NCBI GenBank assembly: GCA_945864455.1
Contig: CAMBBT010000004.1
Coordinates: 1 to 35,945, forward strand
DNA from: Polynucleobacter meluiroseus
GTDB lineage: Bacteria > Pseudomonadota > Gammaproteobacteria > Burkholderiales > Burkholderiaceae
DNA: 35,945 nucleotides
Reading direction: 5' to 3'
The notes under the pieces were generated by a model, which had not been told where the DNA came from, searched no databases, and saw only the letters and a program-made list of their open reading frames with translations. Shown here piece by piece: positions 22,391 through 26,940 of this stretch. The stretch's first letter is position 1. The number at the start of each line of letters is the position of its first letter. The position numbers were made by a program, and so were the translations under genes.

Positions 22391-22435
22391 GTAATTTACT
22401 CATTGGCCAGAAAAAGAAGAATTGAGGAGAGAATT

Positions 22436-23620
22436 ATGTTGAATTGGGAAGAAGAAGTTGCTCCAGCGCTAGCGAAAGTTAGCCTTGCACCGCAGCCGGT
22501 TGCAGTAGAGCCACAACGTCCACAGTTAGATCAAGTAGCAACGGTGCTACAAACTGCCGCGCCTACGCCAGTCCAGGCCGCGAATTTATCTGGTGGCGCA
22601 GCCTTGCGTGTAAACGCTGCTGATAAGCGCGTGATTAATGCCAAGACTGACGTAAACCAGCTGGTTCCATTTAAATATAAGTGGGCTTGGGAGAAGTACT
22701 TGGCGGGTTGTGCAAACCATTGGATGCCACAAGAAATCAATATGAACCGCGATATTGCGCTTTGGAAAGATCCAAATGGTCTGACTGAAGATGAGCGTCG
22801 CATTATTAAGCGCAACCTAGGCTTCTTTACTACCGCCGATTCTTTGGCTGCAAATAATATTGTTTTGGGTACTTATCGTCATATTACTGCTCCAGAATGC
22901 CGCCAATACCTATTGCGCCAGGCTTTTGAAGAGGCAATTCATACCCATGCATACCAATATATCGTTGAATCTTTAGGTCTAGACCAAAGCGAAATCTTCA
23001 ATGCGTATAACGAGATTGAGTCAATTCGCGCTAAAGATCAGTTCTTAATTCCTTATATTGACGTATTAACTGACCCAAATTTCAAGACTGGCACATTAGA
23101 AAGTGACCAAAAATTACTTCGTTCGCTGATTGTTTTTGCCTGCGTAATGGAAGGTTTGTTCTTTTATGTTGGTTTTACGCAAATACTTGCAATGGGTCGT
23201 CAAAACAAAATGACGGGTGCTGCTGAGCAGTATCAATACATCCTTCGTGACGAATCAATGCACTGTAATTTTGGCATCGATTTGATAAACCAAATCAAGC
23301 TGGAGAACCCGCAGTTATGGACTTCCGCGTTCAAAGACGAGATTAAATCCATCTTCGAAAAAGCAGTCGAATTAGAGTACCGTTATGCTGAAGATACGAT
23401 GCCTCGAGGAGTGCTCGGATTGAACGCTCCGATGTTCAAAGGGTACCTAAGATACATCTGTAATCGTAGATGTTTGCAAATAGGACTTGACGCGATGTTC
23501 CCAAATGAAGAGAATCCATTTCCATGGATGTCAGAAATGATAGATCTGAAGAAAGAACGAAACTTTTTTGAGACACGCGTTATTGAGTATCAAACCGGTG
23601 GTGCGCTAAGTTGGGAGTAG
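22436..23620 (+). CDS. nrdB: Ribonucleoside-diphosphate reductase beta subunit
   Basis: [35 protein letters not shown]-like [41 protein letters not shown] at 22436 after GAGGAGAG. Confidence 0.97.
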
Positions 23621-23955: not shown

Positions 23956-24168
23956 ATGGCAACAAAGAAAAAACCTGCTGCAAAGAAACCAGCTGCTAAG
24001 AAATCAGCTGCTAAGAAGCGTCCAGCTGCTAAGAAGCGTCCAGCTGCTAAGAAGAAGCCTGCTGCTAAGAAGAAGCCTGCTGCTAAGAAGCGTCCAGCTG
24101 CTAAAAAGAAGCCAGCCGCTAAGAAGCGTCCAGCTGCTAAAAAGAAGCGCGTAGCTAAAAAAAAGTAA
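23956..24168 (+). CDS. Histone H1-like Lys/Ala/Pro-rich DNA-binding protein (zero-frame product)
   Basis: MATKKKPAAKKPAAKKSAAKKRPAAKKRPAAKKK... repeats; AAGGAG RBS at 23942-23947. Confidence 0.9.
   Translation: MATKKKPAAKKPAAKKSAAKKRPAAKKRPAAKKKPAAKKKPAAKKRPAAKKKPAAKKRPAAKKKRVAKKK
23974..24165 (+). repeat. In-gene tandem repeats encoding PAAKK(R/K) units
   Basis: Reiterated gctgctaagaagcgtcca / gctgctaagaagaagcct units. Confidence 0.85.
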
Positions 24169-24281
24169 GTAAACCTGCTGCGAAGAAAGCGGGCTCTGCT
24201 GTAAAAAAGCCCGCGGCTAAGAAAGCTGCATCAGTAACAACTGCCGCTGCTTGGCCCTTCCCAACTGGCACTCGTCCTTAA
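24165..24281 (+). other. -1 frame continuation of the histone H1-like gene
   Basis: Frame reads VSKPAAKKAGSAVKKPAAKKAASVTTAAAWPFPTGTRP*, same repeat motif, stop TAA at 24279-24281; reached by a -1 slip in the A8 tract 24157-24164. Confidence 0.8.
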
Positions 24282-24312: not shown

Positions 24313-24340
24313 AAAGGGGTCTCTATGAGACCCCTTTTTT
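24313..24340 (+). terminator. Intrinsic terminator downstream of the histone-like gene
   Basis: AAAGGGGTCTC-TAT-GAGACCCCTTT + TTT; 11-bp perfect stem. Confidence 0.9.
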
Positions 24341-24380: not shown

Positions 24381-25340
24381 TCAGAGGCTGAACCCAAATA
24401 CGGATTTGAACTGATCAGTAATCTGATCTTTGCTGATTTGGTGATTTTGTGGTCCCTGGTTGCTAATCTTGATTGAGCCCATCAAACTTGCTAGACGGCC
24501 GGTGGTTTCCCAATCCATGCCATTTTCTAGACCAAAAAGTAATCCTCCACGAAAAGCATCGCCGCACCCAGTGGGATCAATCACTTTTGCAGCGGGTACT
24601 GGTGGAATGGCAATGCGTTTGCCATCGGAATAGATATCGGCGCCTTCTGCACCTTTGGTCACAATCAAAGCCTTCACTCGTTCAGCGACTTTTGCTAGGC
24701 TGTGCCCAGTTCGTTGAGCCAGCATTTCACCTTCATAGTCATTGACAGCTAGATAACTGGCAATATCCACCAACTCAAGTAGCTCTGGGCCATTAAACAT
24801 CGGCAAGCCTTGGCCTGGGTCAAAGATAAAAGGGATATTGGCTTCTGCCAATTGATGGCAGTGCTCCCACATCCCTTGACGACCGTCTGGTGCAACGATG
24901 CCAAACTTTGCAGCCCCTTTAGTATTTTTATTGCGCTCGGCAAGTACTGCAGAAACTTGGTTTAAATGGGACTGATCCATTGCTCCTGGATGAAAGGCGG
25001 TAATTTGATTATTGGACTGATCGGTTGTGATCATCGCTTGTGCAGTAAATGCATGTTCAATTTGACGAATGTGGCTGGCATCAATATTCAATTGTTTCAA
25101 TCGATCTAAGTAGGGCTTGGCATCCCCACCGACTGTTGCCATGATGATTGGATCGCCACCTAAAAGACTGAGGTTATAGGCGATATTGCCAGCACAACCA
25201 CCAAATTCTCGGCGCATCGTTGGCACCAAGAAGGCCACATTCAGAATATGAATTTGCTCTGGCAGGATTTGATCGGCAAATTTGCCTTCAAAGTTCATGA
25301 TGGTGTCGTAGGCGACAGAGCCGCAGATCAAGCTAGCCAT
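24381..25340 (-). CDS. PfkB-family carbohydrate/adenosine kinase
   Basis: FGGCAGNIAYNLSLLGGDPIIMATVGGDA; VTKGAEGADIYSDGKRIAIPPVPAAKVIDPTGCGDAFRGGLLFGL. Confidence 0.93.
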   Translation of the reverse strand: MASLICGSVAYDTIMNFEGKFADQILPEQIHILNVAFLVPTMRREFGGCAGNIAYNLSLLGGDPIIMATVGGDAKPYLDRLKQLNIDASHIRQIEHAFTAQAMITTDQSNNQITAFHPGAMDQSHLNQVSAVLAERNKNTKGAAKFGIVAPDGRQGMWEHCHQLAEANIPFIFDPGQGLPMFNGPELLELVDIASYLAVNDYEGEMLAQRTGHSLAKVAERVKALIVTKGAEGADIYSDGKRIAIPPVPAAKVIDPTGCGDAFRGGLLFGLENGMDWETTGRLASLMGSIKISNQGPQNHQISKDQITDQFKSVFGFSL

Positions 25341-25410: not shown

Positions 25411-26940
25411 TTAGGGGTAAACAACTCTCACCCGATAGCCAGCAGTATTCTGCGGCAATGGAATTGGTAGTTGAGCTTGAATTAACTCTCCAGGGGCGAT
25501 GCCCGAGCGCAAAAAATCAGCATGAGATTCTTGCCAAGCAAGCGGTAACCATTCTTTTGGAGTTAAGCGGATTGATTGGATCTCAGATTCTTCTGCATCA
25601 GTGAGCGTAATTTCTAAATTTGGGGGTAAAACAGCGAGTGCAAGACGATTTTGTATTTCAACTTGCAGTATGGATTGATTTGCGCCGCTTTTAAGGCCCT
25701 CTCTCGCGTTTTCTGGCGATAGTGTGGCTGAAGTTATTTTCCACGCAGCAAAATCGCTTACAGGGCGATTTACGCATCCTAGTGCACCACATATTTTTTC
25801 ATCAACAGCTTGCAAAACAGAAAATGCAGCCACTGAAAAAGAATTTGATGTGCCATCCACACGTGTTGCTAACGCTGGCAGTAAAGAATTTCTAGAAAGG
25901 TGCTCACCAAATACGAGAAGCAGAACAAAAAAACTGGCTAGTAAAGCAAACTTCAACCCCTTTTTTTGCGCAGGTGCAGCAAAAAGAGTTTTTTTACTCT
26001 GCTCTTTGTCGTTGGATAGAGAGCCATGCAAGCAAACCCAGCCGTCATTCTCTTTCCAGACTGAAAGTTTGAGCCATTGACTATAGGTAGTAATCACCTC
26101 ATCAGCTTGACGAGCAAGCACTCCAGATAAAACAATTTGCCCACCTGGGCGTATTTTATTGACCAATGCTGGAGCGAGTACTTGAAGTGGGTTAGCCAAA
26201 ATATTGGCCATCACAATATCGTATTTCGTTTCTGCTGCAAGCTCTGTAGCACTCTCATTTGGTAAAACAAACTGAATGGTGGTGTTATTGATTTGGGCAT
26301 TGCTGCGGGCTGCAATCATTGCTTGAGGGTCGATATCGGTACCTACGACGGAACTACAGCCCAGCTTTGCAGCTGCAATGGCTAGAATGCCCGAGCCGCA
26401 ACCGTAATCGAGCAAACTCTGATTTTTTAGATTTGGATGCTCCTCAAGCCACAGCAAACATAAATGCGTAGTAGGGTGGCTACCCGTACCAAAAGCTAGG
26501 CCTGGATCAACCGCCAAACAGATTGCGTTTGGATCGTTGGGAGCGTCATGCCAAGATGGCACGACCCAAATGCGCTTACCAATGGGAATCGGTGCAAACT
26601 GACTTTGGGTAAGCCTTACCCAATCTTGTTCTTCAACAATTTTTTCTTGGGGGGCTGATAGCTTAAAACCAGCCTCTTTTAGAGAAGCAAGTAATTCAGG
26701 GATAAATTGCGCGCTAGCTGAGTCATCAAGCGCTGGATTAAAAAGAGCAGTTACGGAAGATCTATCCCAGGCCTGAACTTCTGGTGATAGACCAGGTTCT
26801 CCGTAAAGTGGGTTCTCATCATATCCACCAGCTGCATCATCTTCTACGGTGACGGATAGTGCTCCTAACTCCAGGAGCGCATCGCCTAATGGTTCTGCCG
26901 TTTCAGCGACTACCGTGAAGATCAATTCACGATAAGACAT
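25411..26940 (-). CDS. prmA: Ribosomal protein L11 methyltransferase (PrmA) fused to a C-terminal TM-DUF3426 domain
   Basis: Residues 1-309 PrmA (DPGLAFGTGSHPTTHLCLLWLE, LDYGCGSGILAIAAAKLG, ANILANPL); then TM GLKFALLASFFVLLLVFG and DUF3426-like ILQVEIQNRLALAVLPPNLEITLTDAEESEIQSIRLTPKEWL..GIAPGELIQAQLPI. Confidence 0.88.
   Translation of the reverse strand: MSYRELIFTVVAETAEPLGDALLELGALSVTVEDDAAGGYDENPLYGEPGLSPEVQAWDRSSVTALFNPALDDSASAQFIPELLASLKEAGFKLSAPQEKIVEEQDWVRLTQSQFAPIPIGKRIWVVPSWHDAPNDPNAICLAVDPGLAFGTGSHPTTHLCLLWLEEHPNLKNQSLLDYGCGSGILAIAAAKLGCSSVVGTDIDPQAMIAARSNAQINNTTIQFVLPNESATELAAETKYDIVMANILANPLQVLAPALVNKIRPGGQIVLSGVLARQADEVITTYSQWLKLSVWKENDGWVCLHGSLSNDKEQSKKTLFAAPAQKKGLKFALLASFFVLLLVFGEHLSRNSLLPALATRVDGTSNSFSVAAFSVLQAVDEKICGALGCVNRPVSDFAAWKITSATLSPENAREGLKSGANQSILQVEIQNRLALAVLPPNLEITLTDAEESEIQSIRLTPKEWLPLAWQESHADFLRSGIAPGELIQAQLPIPLPQNTAGYRVRVVYP

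Follow-up and report, generated by a model that had tools for sequence, protein, structure and literature searches.

Escherichia coli dnaX, which yields tau and gamma, is a non-mobile chromosomal gene with two products, made at an in-phase A_AAA_AAG heptamer that is read by tRNA-Lys(UUU), followed at short spacing by a hairpin and preceded by a strong SD-like element. Where tRNA-Lys(UUU) is the sole tRNA-Lys, AAG is prone to slip to AAA, as it does in E. coli. A_AA.A_AA.G ranks with the most efficient -1 motifs of that organism, and stimulators usually start 5–8 nt downstream of the slip site (PMC4066793). In Thermus thermophilus dnaX the slippage is transcriptional; it acts on a nine-A run with stops nearby in the other frames, and two C-termini result, of which the long one belongs to the unslipped product. 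In many bacteria, selection against slippage becomes evident at runs of nine (PMC1088944). IS3-family (IS911) cassettes combine A_AAA_AAG with downstream RNA structure, and there the shift extends the protein, although these are mobile elements. Finally, the NCBIfam family NF038053 (hist_H1_lk_Burk) comprises Burkholderiales H1-like proteins with KPAAKK repeats and a WPFPTG tail, encoded in one frame.

The window, a 35,945-nt stretch of Polynucleobacter meluiroseus DNA (contig C4 of an assembly that totals 1.49 Mb in 147 contigs and is 81% complete), carries an H1-like gene that shares features with each of these systems (Table 1). With E. coli dnaX it has in common the in-phase heptamer, tRNA-Lys(UUU), a candidate hairpin at short spacing and two predicted products of a non-mobile chromosomal gene. 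However, the shift would add a tail rather than yield the short product, an SD-like element is not seen, and the gene family is that of a nucleoid protein. Thermus dnaX is matched by the nine-A run found in most of the genus, by the nearby stops and by the two C-termini; the window itself has A8, sequence constraint in the H1-like gene reaches well beyond the tract, and the long unslipped product of Thermus has its counterpart in the A10-fused relatives. With IS911 the gene shares the heptamer, a candidate RNA structure 3' of it and a shift that would lengthen the protein; it differs in being chromosomal with conserved neighbours, the order nrdB, H1-like gene, pfkB being kept. Orthology with the NF038053 family follows from the position beside nrdB and from the tail. 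Full-length fused orthologs in relatives match the model (125 bits along the entire protein in a fused outgroup, and 80.3 bits, against a cut-off of 80 bits), whereas the long form of the window scores 22.9 bits, below that cut-off, and its short form, which lacks the tail, gives no match to the model.

Table 1. Features of the H1-like locus and its surroundings (positions in the window).
Feature	Position	Strand	Basis or remark
nrdB	22403-23620		One flank of the H1-like gene
Zero-frame ORF, short H1-like KPAAKK-repeat protein, 70 aa	23956..24168	+	ORF translation; kept gene order
Slip site AAA AAA AAG	24157..24165	+	9-mer AAAAAAAAG identical in 133/133 split genomes
-1-frame tail, 38 aa, VSKPAAKKAGSAVKKPAAKKAASVTTAAAWPFPTGTRP	24165..24281	+	Codon-position diversity; fused in frame in outgroups
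TAAGTAA	24166..24172	+	Stops in zero frame (24166-24168) and third frame (24170-24172)
Near hairpin CCTGCT (24174-24179) / AGCGGG (24188-24193)	24174..24193	+	Minimum-energy folds; candidate stimulator
Far hairpin GCGGGCT (24189-24195) / AGCCCGC (24208-24214)	24189..24214	+	Hairpin scan
Terminator-like hairpin with T run	24313..24337	+	Hairpin scan; just 3' of tail stop
pfkB-family kinase	24381-25340	Opposite to H1-like gene	Other flank
PrmA-DUF3426 fusion ORF	25411-26940	-	Neighbour of the H1-like locus

An earlier note on this DNA had described a zero frame ending in AAA AAA AAG TAA after GCT, with an in-phase slippery heptamer and a 38-codon extension in the -1 frame, and re-reading of the coordinates bears this out. 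The GCT codon lies at 24154–24156, the A8 tract at 24157–24164 and the G at 24165; the ORF being in phase, A_AAA_AAG is placed at 24159–24165, correctly phased with the zero frame. The -1 reading starts with GTA at 24165, reaches a TAA at 24279–24281 and gives the C-terminal end AAAWPFPTGTRP. Since TAAGTAA supplies stops in two frames, both non-tail frames close immediately. A hairpin scan of the same strand found no terminator-like hairpin in the stretch from the zero-frame stop to that of the tail, and the one just beyond the latter indicates that the tail probably shares the histone transcript.

A query with the tail matched 149 of the 186 genomes of the genus, and all 149 loci were retrieved and classified. 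In most of them the tail lies in a short open frame of ca. 40–59 aa, apart from the histone frame. The split state, defined by AAA AAA AAG TAA with a WPFPTG(T/S)RP tail in the -1 frame, occurs in 133 of the 149; among these the tract is A8, A9 or A10 and the slippery phase is conserved. TAANTAA (N being G, C or T) follows the slip site in all 133. The preceding codon is GCA in 112, GTA in 11, GCT in 9 and GAA in one, and it is through substitution in this codon that the tract varies between species, which leaves the phase fixed. A9 prevails in most of the genus, and among the split genomes A8 is found in the window and eight relatives, nine genomes that retain both heptamer and intact tail. 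The choice of GCA over GCT for the alanine before the slip site (112 vs 9) contrasts with that before lysine elsewhere in the same genes (GCT 1200 and GCA 105 of 1329), where A runs in the 180 nt 5' of the site do not exceed 7.

Exceptions are few. Two genomes are re-fused (G033, with A7, and G182), and a third is fused with the tract absent (G030). G018 (L044) and G050 (L113) have A8 in a GCA context and an intact tail in the +1 frame, out of reach of a -1 shift, while G002 keeps the slip site with a broken tail. The losses of the split state in G033, G182 and G030 count against programmed -1 frameshifting, as do the unreachable tails of G018 and G050. In the complete same-genus genome G005, synonymous shuffling predicts 23.4 A8 runs in 706 kb of ORFs against 9 observed, and ca. 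11 runs of A9 or longer against 3 observed; long T runs (T8/T9) are likewise depleted. The H1-like gene keeps its tract in spite of this depletion, which favours a programmed shift. One of the three A9 runs is the H1-like slip site; the third lies at nt 433 of a 239-aa ORF starting MKSQIQIGEMALEVVRKNIKNVHLSVHPPL. In 800 kb of G005, 1454 ORFs start with ATG and encode 60 aa or more; A_AAA_AAG falls within the last four codons of 3 of them, the histone having by far the longest -1 extension among the three (41 codons, the next having 12). A slip site with a long -1 extension thus occurs here more than by chance.

The tail is maintained as protein. Read in the -1 frame, its distal part has a diversity of 0.012 at first, 0.007 at second and 0.226 at third codon positions. 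So strong a third-position bias is the mark of a translated segment and shows strong purifying selection on the tail in this frame. Translation of the tail as a protein of its own was ruled out, as no conserved ATG, GTG or TTG is present near its 5' end. Purifying selection on the tail also bears on the view that the tail is a dead remnant, the gene having been broken by a recent deletion or the assembly having lost one A. Relatives are indeed fused and the window assembly is fragmented and 81% complete, but the identical phase in more than 130 species-level genomes, many of them isolates on one or few contigs, makes this view scarcely credible; together with the selection on the tail it rules out assembly error or a pseudogene, and the missing A considered in the earlier note is thereby refuted.

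The fixed phase also weighs on a second alternative, also put forward earlier, in which replication slippage in the A tract toggles the long form between cells as a phase-variable switch. Homopolymers are mutable, and the re-fused A7 variant (G033) and the third-frame A8 variants (G018 and G050) do occur between species. However, free switching predicts near-equal numbers of both phases across genomes, whereas the same phase is found in 133, with length altered by substitution only and indel variants of the tract rare (G018, G050, G033 and G182). Such a switch is therefore improbable.

Alongside its protein-level conservation, the region just 3' of the slip site carries a second signal. Fourfold diversity is 0.059 there; the distal part of the tail has 0.184, and the values for nrdB and pfkB are 0.315 and 0.588. 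Over ca. 50 nt synonymous variation is several-fold below that of the neighbouring genes. At one position past the slip site the residue may be A, T, V or S while the third base is always G. Constraint on these codons thus reaches beneath the encoded residues, which points to a signal carried by the nucleotides themselves.

Programmed -1 ribosomal frameshifting on A_AAA_AAG, giving a short and a long nucleoid protein, is on balance the probable explanation, and it is the one of the three alternatives offered in the earlier note that the shared phase of 133 genomes and the selection on the -1 tail support. Under this mechanism the majority of ribosomes would stop at the TAA and release a short, nearly pure Lys/Ala/Pro/Arg protein. 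A fraction would slip back by one base as tRNA-Lys(UUU) re-pairs from AAA-AAG to AAA-AAA, probably aided by a hairpin starting 6–8 nt downstream, and would append ca. 38 residues with the WPFPTG tail. Consistent with this, tRNA-Lys has the anticodon UUU only in 7 complete or near-complete relatives, as found with a pattern allowing either anticodon. Judging from the sequences, cells of nearly every sampled Polynucleobacter species probably make both the short and the long protein from one gene, and the tail may alter the binding of the nucleoid protein. An H1-like protein of Burkholderia cenocepacia, HctB, was recovered in a pull-down with the DNA-mimic protein Bnr1 (PMC9060813).

The RNA downstream of the slip site offers two candidate stimulators. 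The GCGGGCT/AGCCCGC stem noticed earlier exists and starts 23 nt after the AAG, as had been stated; as a candidate stimulator, however, it ranks behind a nearer hairpin, which starts 8 nt after the AAG in the window and 6 nt after it in most relatives. Many relatives have a near stem AGCCTGCT/AGCGGGCT 6 nt after the AAG, plus a further hairpin, in minimum-energy folds. As GCGGG belongs to both the near and the far stem, only one of the two can form at a time. The fold of the window has a z-score of only -1.1. Relative to synonymous randomisation, the first 45 nt are more stably folded in split genomes (mean z -1.08) than in A10-fused genomes (+0.83), the samples being related and non-independent. 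Pair counting gave no significant covariation for either hairpin among sequences that are 93% identical, a similarity too high for covariation to settle the choice between them. Pairs of the far hairpin are kept in 98% of cells, the shuffle control not being significant, and one compensatory change, in G098, favours the far stem. On the predicted folds, the near hairpin appears the better candidate stimulator. The earlier remark that no strong SD-like stimulator is evident agrees with inspection of the window and its relatives, in which no AGGAG-like element was found just 5' of the slip site; many but not all -1 sites of the dnaX and IS911 type have such an element.

Programmed transcriptional slippage, in which RNA polymerase stutters on A8–A10 and one extra A puts the tail in frame, is a less probable but serious competitor that the earlier note had not raised, perhaps working alongside the ribosomal kind. 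Most genomes have A9, the length already under evident selection against slippage (PMC1088944), GCA is favoured before the tract, and related lineages combine A10 with an in-frame tail, as expected if phase hardly matters. The preference for A9 over the minimal A7 and the phase-indifference of A10 fit polymerase slippage equally, and the other frames close at once in split and A10 arrangements alike. A second conserved A9 in the neighbouring prmA-DUF3426 gene points the same way, as does the depletion of A8/A9 and T8/T9 runs in G005 ORFs, although the latter is ambiguous in that replication slippage also depletes runs. Against polymerase slippage as the only process stand the nine genomes around the window, which retain the tail with A8 only, one short of that length; this argument is tempered by the fact that A8 is itself already depleted in the genus. 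Furthermore, polymerase slippage does not need the nucleotide constraint over ca. 50 nt past the tract, and in Jezberella a perfect 12-bp hairpin (z -4.4), 10 nt downstream of the slip site, sits as it would for ribosomal shifting. On this evidence slippage by the ribosome is likelier than slippage by RNA polymerase. Under either mechanism one would expect a short protein rich in Lys and Ala and a longer one that carries the WPFPTG tail.

Outside the genus the same tail is fused in one frame in other Burkholderiales of several families, mostly in proteins of 100–337 aa, and the WPFPTG ending that the earlier note had ascribed to related H1-like proteins is indeed found in many of them. As relatives outside the genus are fused, sequence comparison places the fused gene as ancestral and the split state as derived. 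In a FastTree phylogeny of NrdB and PfkB the split genomes form two clades, a large one to which the window belongs and one of seven genomes including P. cosmopolitanus, which adjoins fused A10 clades (GCA AAA AAA AAA GTA) such as that of P. rarus; parsimony counts five changes between split and fused on this tree, whose support is moderate. A10 lineages keep the tail in the zero frame, and both other frames reach stops within three codons in these lineages and in Sheuella. An order-wide pattern search of 300 sampled genomes recovered an A8 or longer tract with the tail in same-genus genomes only, while a scan of named contigs beyond the genus reached Jezberella, Sheuella and one MAG. Jezberella montanilacus is split (GTA AAA AAA AAG TAG, A9) with the tail in the -1 frame, as is the MAG Ki1-2-7m_bin-567 (GCA AAA AAA AAG TAG), whose host gene is AAG-rich apart from the A9 site. 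These two splits indicate repeated origin, or repeated retention, of the arrangement. In another family, a fused ortholog (L325, in G661) has an A9 tract ca. 79 nt before the WPFPTG codons.

To our knowledge, only a handful of cases of conserved recoding in non-mobile bacterial genes are known. The H1-like gene would be a rare and apparently undescribed example of programmed frameshifting outside mobile DNA, here fixed across most of a genus and in a chromatin-type protein. A literature search on the gene, the tail and a frameshifted nucleoid protein, with most subscription papers outside its reach, returned no report of it as a recoded gene; histones are not mentioned in PMC3711429, and the accessible part of PMC5009743 mentions them in passing only. 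Standard gene calling would report the short protein only and lose the conserved tail. Split, fused, re-fused and phase-inverted versions occur naturally in related and often culturable species, so what a cell gains or loses by recoding, and what the tail does, can be tested directly.

The neighbouring prmA-DUF3426 gene has a tract of its own. Among 36 loci of this gene with an A run of 8 or more (e.g. L203, L235 and L344), the tract at the junction is A9 in 35 and A8 in one, and in 29 of the 36 both other frames close within about six codons. In outgroups PrmA stops ca. 10 aa after residue 300. The tract looks like a second slippage site, which could release PrmA alone. A broader reading can be advanced tentatively, namely that one ancestral slippage tract was kept across the genus and beyond, its default frame flipped (long with A10, short with A8 or A9), its unused frames closed by nearby stops and the ratio of short to long protein set by tract phase. 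With the second A9 site in prmA-DUF3426, A-tract slippage would perhaps be a general route to nested protein pairs in some freshwater Burkholderiales. In the window itself the prmA-DUF3426 tract is shortened to A7 (25961–25967), followed by GGGG.
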